From Bdellovibrionales bacterium (lineage in GTDB: Bacteria; Bdellovibrionota; Bdellovibrionia; Bdellovibrionales; UBA1609): a stretch of 32,762 bases of DNA. The stretch's first letter is position 1, and each line of letters opens with the position of its first letter. The position numbers and the translations under genes were made by a program. This document shows positions 20,611-31,883 of this stretch, piece by piece. Location of the stretch: contig JABSOQ010000030.1 in NCBI GenBank assembly GCA_013216195.1, positions 1-32,762 on the forward strand, in the 5' to 3' direction. The notes beneath the pieces were generated by a model that was given only the letters and a program-made list of their open reading frames with translations, was not told the DNA's origin and did not search any database.

Positions 20611-23600
20611 CTATTTCACGTACACTCGGTGCAAAGTGTCCTCACCGCTTCCACCAGGAAAATCATCACACTCCCAACGATTGCCGTTACCGCGTATACC
20701 CCAATGATTGTTTCCAGCTCTGTAGAATGGAAAGTTCGTCATGGCCTCATCGCCACGGTTACTAAAGTTACCTGTAGCCAACTGAGGCACACCAACGCCC
20801 GTGTGATTGGGCAGCAGCGTGTAATTCGAATCAATATTTGAACAACTCCCACTCCCCGACTCAAAGTAGCTTTTGCATGCACTGTCTGTAGTTTTGAAAT
20901 CTACAATTCGAGAGTGAGAACCAGAGACACAGTAAAAACGAGTCTCACTATATGTAAACTGACTCAACAAACTAGGAGCCGCATGCCCCCAGGTCGTACT
21001 GCTGCCAGACTCATCTACGCCAAGCGTGCTCGAGCCAACCACTGGCAAGGAGGTCGTCCGAAGTGAAACCGCTGGGTTGGCCCCGCCCTGGTGGAGATAA
21101 TTCAGTACCATCATCCAACCACCACCATCGGTAGTTTGATCACAGTACACAGTGATGTTACCCAGAGTTGAGTGACTAATCGTATACTCACCATCAGTCG
21201 TTGAACCTAAGTTGTACCAGTCTTCGCAACTCTCGGGATAACTGTAGCGAAGACTGTCAGCAGAGAAATTGTCAGATATTTCAGTGGCTCCACCTGCGGA
21301 GTAAACCTGAACTTGTGCAATCTCTCCATTCCAAGCCAAGCTGCCATCATCTCTAGCGCCCAGAGTGAAATCGCTTGCCGAACCTGAAGCCAGGCCCGTG
21401 ACATCAGCTGAACACAGCAAAACCCCGTCTTTGTAGAGGTGAGACTGGCTACCGTCAAAATAGCCAGCAACATGTGCCCAAGTGTCTTCTTCAAGCTGGG
21501 CTGAGCACCCTCCTTCGTAGACTTCTTGAATTTGAGCAGGCGTCAAAGCCGTCGGCCAGTAAGCAAAGTCATCAATATCACCCATAGACTGACCACCACT
21601 CTGGTAGTTTCCGACTGCGTAAATGTCATCTTGAACGATGGTCGAAAGCGGAGTTCCTACCTGTGCGCCATCCACGTAGAATGTGGCGTTGGTGCCATTT
21701 GCCACAACAGCTACATGGTGCCAGCCCGCAGAGAGGGTATCTGAGTCAAACCCTGTTGAATGAAATCCACCCTGATAAGAGCCGAGAATGTTTGTTCCCG
21801 ACTGAAAGAGCAGAGCGTGGTAGTTCTGGCCTCTGACAAGAGTCTTCCAACTGCTGTGATGATTAAGTGGGAATTTCGCCCAAACCATTATTGTATAAGT
21901 ATCTGTAATGTCGACCCTCGGATCGAACCTGAGATAACCACTGCCCGTGATATTGTAGGCCTTCGACGATCCATAGGCACCAGTCTGATTGTTACTGATG
22001 CTACCAGAGTTTATGTAACTCGCATCTTGCGCAAGAGATCCAGAGTTTATAGCCGTGCTGCCAGATGTTTCTTCAAGCTTCAGATAGATCGTAGGGCTAA
22101 GGGCGGTAACTGCAGTTTCGGAAGAACCACCTGTCGTTGAGCCAACACTGAACTCATAAGAGCCGTTGTCATTCTGCAGAAGACTCCAACCTGATGAACC
22201 ATCACCTCCATTACCAAAAACAATCGCCTTACCTGTACTTGTATCTTGTGGTTTGATCCAAGCGGTGAACGTTGGTTGTGTGAGAGAGTTGAGACCTGTA
22301 CCAGCAACAACACGATCAGCTGTTGCTCCCGAATTACCAGCGAAAGAAAGTCGATGCGGAGTGGTGATTCCTAAGCCATCACCTAGCCAGCCTGTGCCCC
22401 AAGTGCCTGAACTCAAATCGCCATCAAGAGAGGAACCTGAGCTAAGAAGGTTGATCCAGCTGTTCTGAAAAGGGCTATTACCTCCAGCAATTGTGATGCC
22501 CGCAAAATCTGCCTGGTAGTCAAAGACCAGGTTGCCATTTCGATTGTAGGTTGAGGCAACATTAACCACAATGATCTCGTTATCAGGGGTTCCTCCATCG
22601 GTACCTTGAACCCGAATCTCATAGATCTTACCCGACTGGTCATCACTTGGATTGAAGTCAAACCTTCCATTGCTTGAGAAACTGCCATCAAGCGTGATGA
22701 AGGTGACGCTTGAACAACTGCTTGCTGATCCAACGGAACCATCAACGACCGTGTCGTAAAAACACGTGTAGCTGATAGCAGAATCATTGCCCTCAGTCAC
22801 ATTGTCGAGATCAAATGAAACTGTAGTACCGCTTACTATAGGACCCGCCGCCGATGTAAATGTACGATCAGTAATATCGGTTAAGACGACAGGATCTTTT
22901 GTGGTCACATTTGCATCATTAGTGTTGAGTTCATAGTTGCCATAATAATCGATTGCCCTGACTCGAAAATCATAACTCGTCGACGGGCTCAAGCCATTCA
23001 CAGTGACTGTGGTTGAGTCTTTTGGCAATGAGCCCAAGAAAACGAGAGTGGGCCCCGGCTCAACTCGGAAGTAGACGTATCCGTTTTCATTCGCAACATC
23101 TGTCCAATTCAACCTGACAGAGCTAGAGGTCACACTGTCAAAGCTGTCAATACCCGCAAAGCTCAAGTTCGTAGTGGACACTCCTTCTATACTGCCAAAA
23201 GTTGAATACTCCGTAGAGCCGATCGAACTGCCAAAATTAATACCCATCGCCGACGACAACTCACCCACATCAGAAGGCGCAAACTGTATGGTAACTGTAC
23301 ACGAGCTTCCCGAGCCCAACTTCAACCCGTTGTTGAGAGGGCAATCCGTACTGAGCATCGAAAAATTATCTGAACTCGAGGTCACTGATGTTAGGTAAAT
23401 GCCTGCTGAGGCGTTATTGGTAAGTGTGAACACCTTACTGCTCGACGTTGTATTGACCGGGACTGGGCCAAAATCCCAAGTGACTGGTGAAACTCCGATA
23501 GCCGAGTTTCCAACCTCACCGAAAAGACCGTCTCCAGAGCTGTCGCCAGAAAATGCATCATCTATGGAGGAGTCTTCTTTGCAGCCTAGGGACACCAACA

Positions 23601-23694
23601 TGATGGCCACAGCCAGTGCGGCAGCAAGAGTCCTGAAATGCAGATTTAACACAAACTTATCAATCACTGTCTCTTTATCGGTTAACACCTTCAT
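20611..23694 (-). CDS. large multidomain surface lipoprotein: ASH/choice-of-anchor-like domain, FN3, cadherin-like, nested LamG domains, fibrinogen-like C-terminus
   Basis: Lipobox VSLGC; WDFGPVPVNTTSSSKVFTLTNN; FN3 SSSVRLNWTDVANENGYVYFRV; LamG motifs GWHHVAVVANGTNATFYVDG and TWAHVAGYFDGSQSHLYKDG; C-term CEDWYNLGSTTDGEYTI...VYCDQTTDGGGWMMVLNY. Confidence 0.85.
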   Translation of the reverse strand: MKVLTDKETVIDKFVLNLHFRTLAAALAVAIMLVSLGCKEDSSIDDAFSGDSSGDGLFGEVGNSAIGVSPVTWDFGPVPVNTTSSSKVFTLTNNASAGIYLTSVTSSSDNFSMLSTDCPLNNGLKLGSGSSCTVTIQFAPSDVGELSSAMGINFGSSIGSTEYSTFGSIEGVSTTNLSFAGIDSFDSVTSSSVRLNWTDVANENGYVYFRVEPGPTLVFLGSLPKDSTTVTVNGLSPSTSYDFRVRAIDYYGNYELNTNDANVTTKDPVVLTDITDRTFTSAAGPIVSGTTVSFDLDNVTEGNDSAISYTCFYDTVVDGSVGSASSCSSVTFITLDGSFSSNGRFDFNPSDDQSGKIYEIRVQGTDGGTPDNEIIVVNVASTYNRNGNLVFDYQADFAGITIAGGNSPFQNSWINLLSSGSSLDGDLSSGTWGTGWLGDGLGITTPHRLSFAGNSGATADRVVAGTGLNSLTQPTFTAWIKPQDTSTGKAIVFGNGGDGSSGWSLLQNDNGSYEFSVGSTTGGSSETAVTALSPTIYLKLEETSGSTAINSGSLAQDASYINSGSISNNQTGAYGSSKAYNITGSGYLRFDPRVDITDTYTIMVWAKFPLNHHSSWKTLVRGQNYHALLFQSGTNILGSYQGGFHSTGFDSDTLSAGWHHVAVVANGTNATFYVDGAQVGTPLSTIVQDDIYAVGNYQSGGQSMGDIDDFAYWPTALTPAQIQEVYEGGCSAQLEEDTWAHVAGYFDGSQSHLYKDGVLLCSADVTGLASGSASDFTLGARDDGSLAWNGEIAQVQVYSAGGATEISDNFSADSLRYSYPESCEDWYNLGSTTDGEYTISHSTLGNITVYCDQTTDGGGWMMVLNYLHQGGANPAVSLRTTSLPVVGSSTLGVDESGSSTTWGHAAPSLLSQFTYSETRFYCVSGSHSRIVDFKTTDSACKSYFESGSGSCSNIDSNYTLLPNHTGVGVPQLATGNFSNRGDEAMTNFPFYRAGNNHWGIRGNGNRWECDDFPGGSGEDTLHRVYVK

Positions 23695-24806: not shown

Positions 24807-25535
24807 TTACTCGTGATAACCCCAGCTTTCAACTGAAGAGGTGACCATCTCACCCTCTGCTGTGATCTTCACATCAACCGACATCTTGATGTCACCCTCT
24901 TCGCTCTCTGCCCACCCAGGCACGATATAGCCTAGCACTTTGCCTGACTCCGGGTGCTCTATGACTTTCCATTCATCTTCGGTGCCATCATCAAAAGAGA
25001 AATCGTCTTCGTTTTCGAAATCTTGTGTGTATATGAAGATCTCGTCAACCATCAGCCGACGAACTTTCGCCATTAGACCTTCATCTAGGCCACTTGGATC
25101 AAAGTGTTTCACGTGCTCACCGTACCAAGAGTTCTTCAGAATATTCTCGTCGCTGAAATTCACAGGATTGAGTCTTCTCAGCTCCCAACCTTCGCGAGTC
25201 ACTCGGCCTGAATCTGTAACCATCAGTTTTGCGACCAGCTTGGCATCGAAATCAATACCGCCAGTGCTAAATGCAACATCCATTACTGTGGTGATCTGCC
25301 GGCCACCATCAATGCTCACGGTTTGTGCATCCTCAGTGAAAACAAATGGCTCACCAATGCACGAATCAAGCTTCACGCCTTGTCGACCATAGTCCTGAGC
25401 CGCAACCTTGCAAATTTGTTGTTTGAGATTTTTAGCAAACATCAACTCACCTTTAGCGGGAGCCGCAAATGCTTGACCTGCACCAACAGTGCCGGCAATA
25501 ACTGTACTCGCAATCAGCTTTGATAATTTCATCAC
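24807..25535 (-). CDS. secreted protein of unknown function
   Basis: Signal peptide MMKLSKLIASTVIAGTVGAGQAFA; SD GGAGGGGG. Confidence 0.65.
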   Translation of the reverse strand: MMKLSKLIASTVIAGTVGAGQAFAAPAKGELMFAKNLKQQICKVAAQDYGRQGVKLDSCIGEPFVFTEDAQTVSIDGGRQITTVMDVAFSTGGIDFDAKLVAKLMVTDSGRVTREGWELRRLNPVNFSDENILKNSWYGEHVKHFDPSGLDEGLMAKVRRLMVDEIFIYTQDFENEDDFSFDDGTEDEWKVIEHPESGKVLGYIVPGWAESEEGDIKMSVDVKITAEGEMVTSSVESWGYHE

Positions 25536-25937: not shown

Positions 25938-27677
25938 CTACTGCATAACAGTGACTCGGCCGCCACCATCAACATTTACTCTGATTTCAACATTGGGATT
26001 CTGCTTAAAATTTAGCGACTGAACAGGCAGCTCATATGCGCCCGTCTTGGTAAAAATCCGACCCTTCACTGCCGCAGGCTGAGTGTTTCCGTTGGCACTT
26101 TGAAACCGGTAGCTGATTTTGTAAATGCCTATTTCGAGCTCACTTGTTTGCCAAACTTCTGAACCTGGCCCATTGGTCGAGTCTAATGTGAAGACTGCTG
26201 GGTTGCCTTTGTACTTTCTCATCTTGGCATCATATCTGTTGAGCGTTGGAGACTTCACAACCAAATCAACATTATGTCTCGCAGTTGGCCACTGAATGAT
26301 GATCGCCATAAAGTTCGCCGCCTCACCCGATGAAGGATACTGAGTTTTCAAAGCTTCGAGCTGTCTTTCTAACTGCTGCTTCTCCGCTTTCATTTTTTCG
26401 GTCTGCATCACGACTTTTGCTTGTTGCTGAACCTTTTGCTCTAGAGCTTGGTTTTTGACTTCAAGCGCCTGGGCCTTGGCCTGCATGGCCGCACTTGTGG
26501 AGCTCGCAGCCTTGCCCTGCTGATTCAAGTTCGAAACCTGAGCTTGAAGTGCCGATGCCTGGCTTTGGAGCTTTTGATTTTGTGAGCGAAGCTGCTGACT
26601 TTGCTGCTCATACTTTTGCAACTGCTGAACCTGGGCCTGAAGCGATTTCGCCTCAGTTTCAAGCCTCTTAGTTCTGGCCGCAAGCTGATCGCTACGCTCT
26701 TGATATTGCTTCAGCTCAGCTGAAAGCTTTTGGTTTTTCTCTTCTGCTGACTTCATGCGATCTATCGCCATTGACAGCTTCTTTTCGGTAGACTTCTTGC
26801 CAGAAGCTGCTGATTTCAGCTGTACTAGCTGATTTTGCAGCTGCTTGTTCTGACTTTGGGTGCGCTTTTGCTCGGCCACTGTCTCTTCAAGCCTTTTCAA
26901 CTTACTCTGAAGCAATTCATTCTGCTCTTGCAGCTGAGCCACTTGCGAATTTGACTGATTCGCCGAGTTCAATTGCTTTTTTAAGTTTTGAATCTCGACT
27001 TCTAATTCGGCACTGGCTCCCTGAGCGGCCTTTGCAGACTTAAGCTGCTGCTTTAGCTGGTCGACCTGAGCCTGAAGAGCAGCACTGTTTGCACTGGCAG
27101 CCGACTTGCTACTGAGTTTTTCAAACAGCTCTTGGTTGCGCTTTTGAAGTTGCGCATTGTTTTGCTGTGCCGTCGCCAAGTCTTGCGAAACCTGTTGATT
27201 TTTTTGCTTCAAATTCTCAAAGGCTTGCTTGGCTCTAGCATGAGTGGTCCTCAGCTTGCCTAACTTCTTAAGTGCGAGCTTGAACTTCTTTTGCAGCCGA
27301 GACTGGCCGCCCTTGCTAGTCTCGAGCTGGTCGAGAATGTCTTGCAAACTGTTCTTTTTTTCAGTCAGTGTGGCGATTTCAAGCTGTTTTGACCTGAGCT
27401 GCTCTTCAATGCGGTTGGTTTGAGCTTCAGCAACAGCCATACGTTTCTTCATATCCCTTACAAGATTCGCCATCTCTAGCAGTTGCTCCCTGAGATCTTC
27501 GATCACCTCAGGAGAGCCGGCTTGTATCGGAGGCATGGGTGCCAACACTTCAGACTTTTTGCCAAAGTAGGGAAACAAAATCATTACTAAAATAATGAAA
27601 ACACCTAGCGCCGAAGCGAACAGATCGATCGCTGAGGTGCTGAAGACATTTATTTCACGGCTTCGCTTTTTGCTCAT
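25938..27677 (-). CDS. ExbD/MotB-like single-TM protein with very long coiled coil and C-terminal beta domain (DUF2135/YfaP-like, tentative)
   Basis: INVFSTSAIDLFASALGVFIILVMILFPYF (Asp at start of TM as in ExbD INV..xxD); ~400 residues Gln/Leu/Lys heptad-rich; C-term VDLVVKSPTLNRYDAK...GPGSEVWQTSELEIGIYKISYRF. Confidence 0.65.
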   Translation of the reverse strand: MSKKRSREINVFSTSAIDLFASALGVFIILVMILFPYFGKKSEVLAPMPPIQAGSPEVIEDLREQLLEMANLVRDMKKRMAVAEAQTNRIEEQLRSKQLEIATLTEKKNSLQDILDQLETSKGGQSRLQKKFKLALKKLGKLRTTHARAKQAFENLKQKNQQVSQDLATAQQNNAQLQKRNQELFEKLSSKSAASANSAALQAQVDQLKQQLKSAKAAQGASAELEVEIQNLKKQLNSANQSNSQVAQLQEQNELLQSKLKRLEETVAEQKRTQSQNKQLQNQLVQLKSAASGKKSTEKKLSMAIDRMKSAEEKNQKLSAELKQYQERSDQLAARTKRLETEAKSLQAQVQQLQKYEQQSQQLRSQNQKLQSQASALQAQVSNLNQQGKAASSTSAAMQAKAQALEVKNQALEQKVQQQAKVVMQTEKMKAEKQQLERQLEALKTQYPSSGEAANFMAIIIQWPTARHNVDLVVKSPTLNRYDAKMRKYKGNPAVFTLDSTNGPGSEVWQTSELEIGIYKISYRFQSANGNTQPAAVKGRIFTKTGAYELPVQSLNFKQNPNVEIRVNVDGGGRVTVMQ

Positions 27678-28497
27678 ACGGATCTAGCCGGTTGATGAGG
27701 TGCTCAAAGGTGTACTGGTAGATCGAGTTGATGTTCTTCTCTTCAGCGGTCTCTACCACATTCATCAGATAGAGCAGAATGGAGCTTTGAACTAAGGCAA
27801 GAAGAGTTGTGTCGAAAGCGACAGCAAGGTTGGCTGCGACTGTCTGAAGAAGAGTTGGATCCGTTGGGTCTGACTGGCCGACTACAGCCACAGTTCCCGA
27901 AATCCCGTAAACCGTGCCGATAAAACCTAGAGTTGGAATCAACCAAGAGAGATATCTTAGACGAGAGTAGAATAGGTCGAGATTTTTCTCAAAGATCTCA
28001 ATAAAGTGCTTCAGAGTATTTGTTGCCTCTTCAATAGACTTATTTGACTGAAACTTAAACACGATTTGCTGAATCAACTTGGGCAAGAGAGCCGATTGGT
28101 TCTCAACCACTGGTGAAATGGTGCGCAAGATTCTAGCTAGGTCTTTCGAAGTGTAGATCTTGTCTGGGCTTTCATTGAGCAAGCCCTCTGTGAAATAAGT
28201 CTTAGATTCTTCGTACTCGAGATAGCGCTTAAACAGTTCATGTAAGCCGATAAAGAACGGCAACCACATAAACATCTGAAAGCTGTAAGGGTAGCTAGGC
28301 TCGTTCATGCCAAATAGTATGTTGGCAAAGAATGGGGACATCACTTTGCTGCAGGCTATGGCGAGAGCATAACCTATAGCAATCGTGATCGAATACTCCA
28401 AGATGACAGGCACTGTTCTTTGAAGCTGAAACAGGCTTTTCAACAACTCTACCAGAAGGCTCCCTATAGCTGTGAATGCTTTCAGTATATTCTTCAT
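27655..28497 (-). CDS. MotA/TolQ/ExbB proton channel family protein
   Basis: LSWLIPTLGFIGTVYGISGTVAVVG...VAANLAVAFDTTLLALVQSSILLYL is the ExbB/TolQ core; start MKNILKAF overlaps FHA stop as ATGA. Confidence 0.8.
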   Translation of the reverse strand: MKNILKAFTAIGSLLVELLKSLFQLQRTVPVILEYSITIAIGYALAIACSKVMSPFFANILFGMNEPSYPYSFQMFMWLPFFIGLHELFKRYLEYEESKTYFTEGLLNESPDKIYTSKDLARILRTISPVVENQSALLPKLIQQIVFKFQSNKSIEEATNTLKHFIEIFEKNLDLFYSRLRYLSWLIPTLGFIGTVYGISGTVAVVGQSDPTDPTLLQTVAANLAVAFDTTLLALVQSSILLYLMNVVETAEEKNINSIYQYTFEHLINRLDPYEQKAKP

Positions 28498-29105
28498 AAA
28501 CGGCCCTCGCAGTATGGGCACTGAGTCCAAGTCGAAAGCACTACAGACTTGCAATGACGACAACGGATTCGAGCCACATGGGTTTCAATTTGCGATTGAT
28601 TCATCTGCACAGCAGGCTCAACACCTGGTGCACTCTGCACTTGTGGGTTTAAAACTTGCTTGTTCGGCTTAGGCTTAAGCGGTTTACTTTTGGGTGACGT
28701 AACCTGGTCTTGGCTTGCCGACTTGACCTGAGAGCGTTTGGGCTTTCGTTGCACCTTCACAGTTTTAGCCGGGTCTGTTACTGGCCGATCCAGCTCAAAC
28801 TCTTCTTCTCTGGGTTGGCCCATGAAATTTGCTTGAGTGGAGTCTAAAATGGTCTCCACAATCTCTTGAATTGTGAGAGGAGCCGACTTTCCAAAAACGA
28901 TCACATCTTCTGGGTGAAGCATCACTTTGTCGACTTTTTGTGTCTCATCATTGCGAATCACATAAGTTCCATATTTTGAATCAAGATCGATAAGTTCAAT
29001 CGACTCTTCTGAATGAAAAATCAACTCGGCATGAGCGCGACTGACCGTGCCGTCTGGTATGCAATAAGTGTTGTTCTCAGATCTACCAATTTGAATTTTA
29101 CGCAT
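28494..29105 (-). CDS. FHA domain protein with C-terminal zinc ribbon
   Basis: IQIGRSENNTYCIPDGTVSRAHAELIF...DLDSKYGTYVIRN (FHA); C-term CRHCKSVVLSTWTQCPYCEG (CxxC...CxxC). Confidence 0.85.
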   Translation of the reverse strand: MRKIQIGRSENNTYCIPDGTVSRAHAELIFHSEESIELIDLDSKYGTYVIRNDETQKVDKVMLHPEDVIVFGKSAPLTIQEIVETILDSTQANFMGQPREEEFELDRPVTDPAKTVKVQRKPKRSQVKSASQDQVTSPKSKPLKPKPNKQVLNPQVQSAPGVEPAVQMNQSQIETHVARIRCRHCKSVVLSTWTQCPYCEGRL

Positions 29106-29605: not shown

Positions 29606-29681
29606 GACAGTTCGACTCAAAAACTGTCAAAAAATCAGCTATTTAGACAGTTTTAAGGGGTAATTGTCAAATCTGACCCCT
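29606..29681 (+). promoter_or_regulatory. candidate leader with mutually exclusive hairpins
   Basis: GACAGTT (29606-29612), AACTGTC (29622-29628), GACAGTT (29646-29652); then AGGGGT (29656-29661)/ACCCCT (29676-29681). Confidence 0.35.
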
Positions 29682-29735
29682 CAACCTAGAATGAGAGACC
29701 AAGCATCGAGAAACGACACACCCCGGAGGCACAAC

Positions 29736-31883
29736 ATGCACCGCCGCTCACCTCAAAGGCTCAAAAGCTTGCGCAATTCTACCCTTCGCAAAACCAGTTT
29801 GATCAAACTCATGGCCTTTGCAATTGGCCTAATGATTTCTCTCGATGCTGGGGCCAATTCATGGGATGACTTTTTTGATGCCGCAAAGCTGAAGCGTGAA
29901 GATGTTGAATTCAAAAGCCACGACATGAGCCTATTTGGGGGCGCCTCACATGTTTCACCGCACTTCAAAAACCTAATGCTCAATCCTCTAGGCACCCCTA
30001 GCTACTTTCAAGTCACCAAGAATCAATTGAACGCAAAACAGAATGAAGTGGATCACCTGCTGATTCAAACCCTGGCTAAACAAGGTTTAGGAATCAGAAG
30101 AAACTTAGTCGGCAATTCCACGGCAGCCTACAAGGCCTTAAGCGAAAAGCGATATGCACTAAGAGATGCAATTGCCAAACTCTACTCTCTCAAAAGCAAA
30201 AAACTCACTGCCAAAGAAAAAAGTGATATTCAACACTTTGAAGACCAAGGGTCTCGCAGCTTCAACGAGAGCCTCGCCTACCTAGTTTATGTGGTACATG
30301 CGTCACAACTGCAGAGAAACAAATCGTTGAAGGCAATCAAAGGCTCAAGACTAAAGATCTTGGTAGCTGAGATTCTAAAAGAGCAACGCTACTCAGAAGA
30401 CATTTTTAAGCCCCTCTCCCCTGCCATTCGACAGGCCGCCGAGCAGACCGACATGAAGGCTTTGGCGGTTGGAGCAATTGACATGGCTATTGCCATTCAA
30501 AAGATCAAAGGCAAAATGTCAGAGCTCGGGTCTGAGATCGAGCAAGTCTTAAAACTCAAGACACCATTTGGCTGGCTGATCCTCGACACTCGGAAGAAGA
30601 GCTCGACTCATATGGGCCCGTTTTTCTTTGTCGTAGACACACACGGAGACGACACCTACATCGCCCAGCCTGGTCAGTTGGGAGCGCCAGAGGTCATTCT
30701 AGATCTCAAGGGTAACGACAAATACATTTACGAAAAAGCTTTGGCGAAAACCTCCGTGCAGAAGTTTGATAAAAGATCTGATCAAAGCACTCGTAGCTTT
30801 GGCTCTGGTTTCTTCTCTTATTCGTTTTTGGTCGACTTTGAGGGTAACGATCTATACCGCAGCACAAGCCTTTCTCAAGGAGCTGGGATGTTTGGTGTCG
30901 GTGTGCTTTGGGATCTCAGAGGCGACGACACTTATGACTGTTACAACTTCTGTCAAGCCGCTGCTAAGTTTGGCGCCGGCCTGCTGATAGACAATCAAGG
31001 GGCCAATCAACATTTTGTGTTTCGCGAAGGGCAGGCCTTTGCAAGCACTCTGGGCGCTGCCGCCCTACTCAATTTTGGCAACGAGCCTGACAATTACATA
31101 GCTCACAGGACTCCGACAGACTACCCGGCGTACTATGACAAGACTGTGAACTCGAGCTTTGCCCAAGGTGCTGCACTCGGCTTCAGAGCTGACTACATTG
31201 ATGGCAACTCGGCTGCAGGAGGCTTCGCTCTTTTGTTAGACGGTGGAGGCAATAACAAGTTTGAAGCCGGTTTTTATGCACAAGGCACGGCCTACTGGTA
31301 CGGTGTTGGAGCTCTGTTGTCGGGCTCAGGCGATGACGAATACTTGTCTTCTAAGTACTCACTCGGTAGCGGTGTTCATTTCGGCGTTGGCTTTGTCGAC
31401 GACTCAGGTGGTGACGACCAATACCAAGTCAAGCAAGAGCTCGGCATCGCGGCCGGCCACGACTTCTCACTTGGCTTTCTGATCGACCACGCGGGCAACG
31501 ATCGCTACTGGGCTGTGAACTTAAGCTTTGGTTGCGGCAGTGCCAATGGCATAGGCTTGTTCTGGGATATCAGGGGTAAAGACGAGTACACCATGACAGG
31601 TAAAGAAGGCTTTGGATGCGCAAGTGACCGAACCAGCAGGCACTCCATTCGTAACCGCAATCAGACCCTTGGCTTTTTTCTAGACAGCAAAGGCCGAGAC
31701 TCTGTAAATGCCGAAGACACAAAGATCAATGGCGAGCACCGGCGTAAATCATGGGTCAACGGCCCCATTAAGACTCCGAAACCGGCCTTTACCAAACCTT
31801 ACTACATTGGGATCGGTCGCTTCTCGCAAAGACCCCCGAAAGTGTTTCCCGATGGCTTCCCGTTAGTAAAAGATGAGCAATGA
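29736..31883 (+). CDS. secreted repeat protein, probable beta-solenoid with ~27-aa GDDxY repeats
   Basis: SD GGAGG 7 nt before ATG 29736; signal-like LIKLMAFAIGLMISLDAGANS; repeats GDDTY/GNDKY/GNDLY/GDDTY/GDDEY/GDDQY/GNDRY/GKDEY. Confidence 0.75.
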   Translation: MHRRSPQRLKSLRNSTLRKTSLIKLMAFAIGLMISLDAGANSWDDFFDAAKLKREDVEFKSHDMSLFGGASHVSPHFKNLMLNPLGTPSYFQVTKNQLNAKQNEVDHLLIQTLAKQGLGIRRNLVGNSTAAYKALSEKRYALRDAIAKLYSLKSKKLTAKEKSDIQHFEDQGSRSFNESLAYLVYVVHASQLQRNKSLKAIKGSRLKILVAEILKEQRYSEDIFKPLSPAIRQAAEQTDMKALAVGAIDMAIAIQKIKGKMSELGSEIEQVLKLKTPFGWLILDTRKKSSTHMGPFFFVVDTHGDDTYIAQPGQLGAPEVILDLKGNDKYIYEKALAKTSVQKFDKRSDQSTRSFGSGFFSYSFLVDFEGNDLYRSTSLSQGAGMFGVGVLWDLRGDDTYDCYNFCQAAAKFGAGLLIDNQGANQHFVFREGQAFASTLGAAALLNFGNEPDNYIAHRTPTDYPAYYDKTVNSSFAQGAALGFRADYIDGNSAAGGFALLLDGGGNNKFEAGFYAQGTAYWYGVGALLSGSGDDEYLSSKYSLGSGVHFGVGFVDDSGGDDQYQVKQELGIAAGHDFSLGFLIDHAGNDRYWAVNLSFGCGSANGIGLFWDIRGKDEYTMTGKEGFGCASDRTSRHSIRNRNQTLGFFLDSKGRDSVNAEDTKINGEHRRKSWVNGPIKTPKPAFTKPYYIGIGRFSQRPPKVFPDGFPLVKDEQ

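Follow-up and report, generated by a model that had tools for sequence, protein, structure and literature searches.

Three overlapping genes of a Bdellovibrionales bacterium probably code for an ion-driven envelope motor of the 5:2 type that is regulated by phosphorylation, and in which the product of gene 3 would be both the axle and the force-delivering arm. The genes lie on the minus strand of a DNA stretch of 32,762 nucleotides, which is called the window here. Ion-driven 5:2 motors are known from flagella, the Ton and Tol systems, gliding and Zorya. To our knowledge, the switching of bacterial envelope motors by phosphorylation is a largely open field, and a widespread motor clustered with kinases, phosphatases and FHA proteins makes this question directly testable in culturable marine bacteria. 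Moreover, the exchange of axle heads reveals the end at which the machine adapts to different loads in evolution, and the outsized coil in the window, as a variant in length, allows one to study the possible reach of a rotating axle.

Gene organization of the trio

Gene 1 (28494..29105, 203 aa) encodes a protein with an FHA domain and a C-terminal zinc ribbon, gene 2 (27655..28497, 280 aa) a channel subunit of the MotA/TolQ/ExbB type and gene 3 (25938..27677, 579 aa) a protein consisting of a transmembrane helix (TM) with Asp18, a coiled coil and a beta domain. All three are on the minus strand, as are all features located within them below. Re-reading of the sequence agreed with the preliminary description in every coordinate: The stop codon of gene 1 and the start codon of gene 2 share an ATGA (28494..28497, 4 nt), and genes 2 and 3 overlap by 23 nt (27655..27677). 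The order and the overlaps recur in other lineages, for example as a 4-nt FHA/channel overlap in loci L081 and L079, and the operon is therefore beyond chance.

The GC content of the trio equals that of the window (46.4 % versus 46.7 %), so that composition gives no sign of a recent foreign origin. The window contains neither tRNAs nor Rfam elements, and a Pfam scan of the neighbouring ORFs (24807-25535 and 29664-31883) returned no match. No TonB, TolA or Pal was seen near the trio and no kinase or phosphatase gene beside it in the window; adjoining flagellar genes and T6SS genes were likewise absent. The ORF at 29664-31883, divergent from the trio, encodes a secreted-looking protein of 739 aa with repeated G-N/D-D-x-Y motifs. 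Another protein, encoded at 20611-23694 and 1027 aa long, contains fn3 and three stretches of the LamG type, matches fibrinogen-C partially and is likely a surface or adhesion protein.

Gene 2 has the fold of TolQ/ExbB/MotA channel subunits

Gene 2 matches the Pfam model MotA_ExbB (27727..28056; E 1.3e-9, 38 bits, cut-off 22.9) and is among the weakest of the 17 such matches in the host genome. Its AlphaFold model (pLDDT 94) ends after the pore helices, without a long cytoplasmic tail. Foldseek ranked TolQ, ExbB, ZorA and MotA at the top (probability 0.97-1.00) with TolQ as the closest PDB entry, at TM-scores of at most 0.71 by target length and E-values of only about 1e-3 to 1e-2; a single-sequence search of the PDB gave only weak ExbB and MotA matches. 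The MotA/TolQ/ExbB core assigned to gene 2 earlier is thus present in both profile and fold. Two pore threonines, T195 (27913-27915) and T231 (27805-27807), are invariant in 81 of 81 channels, a set whose retrieval patterns partly select for both. These threonines, the retained Asp of gene 3 and the TolQ/ExbB/MotA fold support the earlier proposal of a device powered by the proton motive force. Gene 2 lies far below every NCBIfam equivalog cut-off (TolQ: 18.4 versus 221 bits), and no curated subfamily fits.

ZorA profiles match gene 2 weakly (E 2.7e-5), and this match together with the common 5:2 theme speaks for a Zorya-like anti-phage system. We consider this reading very unlikely, as ZorC, ZorD and ZorE were not seen, the channel lacks the long cytoplasmic tail and the neighbours of its relatives are signalling genes; these relatives include a single clear plasmid member and no phage member. 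A PADLOC scan, which covers the trio only, gave no ZorC/D/E match, and the adjacent ORFs are those without a Pfam match. A ZorA1 profile found nothing in 291 genomes of the phylum, with an equally silent positive control.

Gene 3 combines an aspartate-bearing helix with a giant coiled coil

The single TM of gene 3 is N-terminal and carries Asp18 (codon at 27624..27626). This aspartate is invariant in 87 of 87 partner proteins, D18 included, in a set selected by a short profile. Residues 55-445 (26343..27515) form a coiled-coil segment of 391 residues with one Pro. Its heptad periodicity is pronounced, with a mean power over 98-aa windows of 10.7 compared to 2.1 +/- 0.6 for shuffled sequences, and none of 300 shuffles reached 10.7. 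In Pfam, only coiled-coil models match gene 3; ExbD (PF02472), MotB, OmpA and vWA do not. The C-terminal domain (25941..26330) was modelled by AlphaFold as all-beta with ten strands (pLDDT 89) and is distantly DUF2135-like: DUF2135 is matched by four of 19 homologues (best 7.4e-6), and a Foldseek search against the PDB yielded nothing significant (best E 5e-3, TM 0.54). Each part of the architecture described before, namely the Asp-bearing TM, a coiled coil of about 400 residues and a C-terminal beta domain without OmpA, was confirmed.

The linker between TM and terminal domain spans 407 residues in the window, compared to a median of 73 and a next longest of 166 in the class with beta domains. 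The giant coil is peculiar to the window member and does not characterize the family. A recent tandem expansion of the DNA was ruled out as its origin, since gene 3 contains no tandem repeat. If continuous, the coil has a contour length of about 58 nm. This exceeds a typical periplasm, and the coil must therefore bend, fold back or tilt. We place it in the periplasm because sister trios of the Bdellovibrionota carry OmpA at the C-terminus of gene 3. Of the two options in the preliminary description, a periplasmic or a surface stalk, the OmpA-bearing sisters thus speak for a periplasmic arm, and the surface stalk found no support.

The host genome also encodes an orphan paralogue of gene 3 (321 aa; L150:1495-2460, corresponding to G000:C264:3804-4769), which has a nearly identical TM, a close beta domain and a shorter coil. 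Neither a channel nor an FHA gene was seen next to this paralogue. As one family channel was found in the genome (profile search of 369 phylum genomes), a mixed axle of gene 3 and the paralogue is possible.

Gene 1 couples an FHA domain to a zinc ribbon

In gene 1, residues 5-72 (28890..29093) form the FHA domain (Pfam E 9.4e-15), and residues 180-203 (28497..28568) a CxxC..CxxC zinc ribbon with C182, C185, C196 and C199. Both had been recognized before; the four cysteines are visible, and the ribbon stays below the Pfam threshold (16.5 versus 27 bits). The ribbon motif is kept in 22 of the 54 homologous upstream FHA proteins, including all of those from Bdellovibrionota. At the phosphothreonine site, the window protein keeps GR and the VSRAH motif with its Ser, and the canonical NGT is changed to YGT with the Asn replaced. 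Some sister proteins (L104, L108, L116) have GS in place of GR. Given these imperfect motifs, some members of the clade could have lost the ability to bind phosphothreonine. Used as a single query against 369 genomes, the FHA protein matched only itself.

Gene 1 also matches the GltG profile weakly, with 26.8 bits. An Agl-Glt-like machine for gliding or focal adhesion, in which the FHA-zinc-ribbon protein serves as the coupler in the cytoplasm, would be in line with this match, with the interaction of AglR with the FHA-bearing GltG and with the gliding of Bdellovibrio (PMC3169522). It is nonetheless an improbable reading, because the match is far under the cut-off of 650 bits and reflects the FHA domain only, no glt-like neighbour was recognised among the window ORFs read, and the family occurs in many phyla.

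Distribution and phylogeny of the channel family

Clear homologues were found in three of 59 relatives. In G006 (45 %), an FHA-ribbon gene lies upstream and the contig ends inside gene 3. In G007 and G044, the channel is accompanied by a gene 3 that shares TM and beta domain and has a linker of some 130 residues; both lack an FHA gene. The distribution is patchy, with carriers in four of about 60 genomes from the family and the order, and the FHA gene is absent in two close relatives (L118, L129). When 369 genomes of the phylum were searched with a profile, 65 had matches. Five loci (L040-L044) contain the FHA-ribbon gene and the channel, and gene 3, where covered, ends in an OmpA domain (PF00691, 1.8e-9 in L040); in other phylum loci, the channel is paired with a TM-vWA protein, without FHA. 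Scanning 85,462 species genomes retrieved 401 relatives, 80 of which were kept. Altogether, the C-terminal domain of the partner is swappable between vWA, a DUF2135-like beta domain (as in the window) and OmpA, and tandem axle genes are common in alphaproteobacterial loci. In a further set of loci from Planctomycetota, Pseudolabrys and Chthoniobacterales (L115, L121, L126, L131, L098), a long axle carries a head without a vWA, beta or OmpA profile match.

In a maximum-likelihood tree of 106 channels, which has some joins on long branches, the family is split from the 26 other MotA_ExbB channels by a branch with support 100/98 and extends over many phyla. The window falls into a Bdellovibrionota clade of ten rows (99/99), together with the OmpA trios and L118/L129, and this clade is nested in a set of 13 rows that includes Gammaproteobacteria (97/94). 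The trio is thus conserved outside the window genome, and profiles as well as the separate clade place genes 2 and 3 outside the ordinary Tol/Exb and Zorya families; both findings leave the core of the preliminary description standing.

In two Bdellovibrionota relatives without FHA (L034:8893-11384 and L035:2926-5534), the channel/axle pair comes after a barrel-like protein and one that by eye resembles FecR-type domains, both without a supporting Pfam match, and then a divergent HAMP-phosphatase-like or GGDEF-like gene. On the Anabaena plasmid pANACY.03 (L148:7743-9143), type III-B CRISPR genes adjoin a distant MotA/TolQ/ExbB gene, and a viperin gene is located some 5 kb beyond; this channel is possibly linked to defence.

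Genomic linkage to FHA proteins, kinases and phosphatases

Linkage was counted using stop-to-stop ORFs and home-made profiles, with a same-strand FHA gene at most 900 nt upstream and a kinase or PP2C within 7 kb. Of 77 testable family loci, 54 have an FHA gene directly upstream of the channel, compared to none of 27 distinct other MotA_ExbB loci (Fisher p 1.7e-11, related loci being treated as independent). Among the 54 FHA-linked loci, 40 also contain a gene for a Ser/Thr kinase or a PP2C no more than 7 kb away, and 23 have both. The FHA-linked loci come from six phyla: Pseudomonadota, Bdellovibrionota, Thermodesulfobacteriota, Acidobacteriota, Verrucomicrobiota and Balneolota. An ordinary ExbBD/TolQR energiser that stands beside an FHA gene by chance, for which the generic MotA_ExbB match might be taken, is strongly disfavoured and hardly credible in view of this linkage in several phyla, the separate clade, the missing ExbD/TolR domain and the absence of TonB, TolA and Pal nearby.

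Examples are the cluster of Aliiglaciecola (L081), with the order FHA, channel, second FHA, PP2C, trypsin-TM-FHA, TM-vWA, Ser/Thr kinase and PP2C, and the comparable L101, whose domains (FHA, PP2C, trypsin-FHA, TM-vWA and kinase, all within one operon) were confirmed by Pfam. In Bacteroidota (L132-L134, L144), the axle gene precedes the channel, which is followed by an FHA gene encoding about 500 aa, along with kinase and PP2C; the head of this axle is unclassified. The placement of the window clade in the tree suggests that the kinase/PP2C linkage was lost in that clade; the host genome of the window still encodes five kinases and two PP2C proteins that pass the curated Pfam cut-offs. Phospho-regulation, at first guessed from the FHA domain alone, is strengthened by relatives whose clusters include kinases as well as PP2C phosphatases. 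The neighbourhood survey proposed for such trios uncovered a recurring cluster.

The main rival to a motor is an inward signal through the same hardware. Here, beta domain and coil would sense an envelope ligand, the state of the peptidoglycan or damage and gate the channel, and the FHA protein would relay the signal to kinases and phosphatases, making the complex a mechanosensor and not a force producer. The gene partners are indeed signalling proteins, including trypsin-TM-FHA and the FHA-PP2C-kinase sets, the vWA and beta heads resemble ligand-binding modules, and for Zorya it has been proposed that ZorB senses peptidoglycan and that the signal is carried by ion flux (PMC11890865). However, FHA domains generally act downstream of kinases as readers, an arrangement that is equally compatible with a regulated motor, and we regard the sensor as the less likely of the two readings.

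A model for the proposed phospho-switched motor

For the motor that we favour, gene 2 would assemble into a pentameric ring, through which two copies of gene 3, or gene 3 and its orphan paralogue, would thread their Asp18 helices. Ion flow would turn or pull this axle, whose geometry is also predicted by the TPH-vWA model (PMC12204202). Since the axle would extend directly into the coiled coil of the periplasm, gene 3 would deliver the force itself, with neither TonB nor TolA involved. At the tip, the beta domain might grip an envelope partner as the load, in the position taken by the peptidoglycan-binding OmpA domain in the sister trios. In the cytoplasm, the FHA-zinc-ribbon protein would recognize a phosphothreonine, carried by the ring or by a docked partner, and thereby turn the motor on or hold it. 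This switch would be under the control of a kinase and a phosphatase, which in the window would act in trans. Several observations speak against this model, namely the imperfect FHA motif, the missing FHA gene in L118 and L129, the fact that no kinase or phosphatase gene was seen beside the trio, a contour length of the coil beyond that of a typical periplasm and the patchy distribution. We infer the phosphothreonine gating from the linkage and from two precedents: Fha binds phosphorylated TssL in the T6SS (PMC3953482), and the TolQ-type AglR binds the FHA-bearing GltG (PMC3169522).

More tentatively, and with the chances slightly against it, the trio may belong to a class of motors in at least six phyla that is switched by kinase, PP2C and FHA proteins and carries interchangeable heads (vWA, DUF2135-like beta or OmpA). 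The window would then hold a stripped version with an arm of about 58 nm and possibly a heterodimeric axle that includes the shorter orphan paralogue.

Comparison with known systems

With the MotAB/PomAB stators, the trio shares the channel fold, the Asp helix and the single-TM axle, and the sister trios also the OmpA domain. In contrast, the axle in the window has a long coil instead of OmpA, an FHA partner and no adjoining flagellar genes. Similarity to ExbBD-TonB and TolQR-TolA lies in the channel fold, whereas the periplasmic ExbD/TolR domain and TonB/TolA are missing and gene 3 itself would be the transducer. Zorya ZorAB has the 5:2 theme and the Asp axle in common with the trio, but its long extension is the cytoplasmic tail of ZorA, while that of the window would be periplasmic and belongs to the B-type subunit; ZorC/D/E were not seen here. 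In Agl-Glt, the TolQ-type AglR contacts an FHA-bearing protein as well, but AglQ/S are of the ExbD type, GltG is a TM transducer and no glt genes were recognised at the trio. The threonine phosphorylation pathway of the T6SS (PpkA, PppA, Fha) also has a kinase, a phosphatase and an FHA protein acting on an inner-membrane machine, which in our case would be an ion-driven motor, without T6SS genes.

A literature search for the combination of FHA, PP2C, kinase and ExbB, with most subscription journals and preprints outside its range, found no describing paper. The closest system is that of the TPH-vWA/TolQ-like motors, reported in the computational study "Origin and Evolution of Bacterial Periplasmic Force Transducers" (msaf138, 2025), which starts from an Idiomarina homologue (PMC12204202). 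The trio, earlier taken as a candidate for an undescribed system, is therefore not wholly new, since that study already reported the vWA branch of its motor family. The channel family is apparently the same: Clusters of the same make-up occur in Idiomarinaceae (L088, L090), and their channels and that of the window are on the same side of the 100/98 branch. The TPH-vWA motors also share the Asp of the transpore helix, a threonine ring, an axle that is the force transducer, the lack of TolR/ExbD and frequent tandem axle pairs. The window differs by its DUF2135-like beta domain and its coil of 391 residues in place of vWA, and the sister trios by OmpA. FHA, kinases, phosphatases, PP2C and DUF2135 are not mentioned in the main text of that study, and relative to this text the link to FHA, kinase and phosphatase, the beta and OmpA branches and the giant coil are new.
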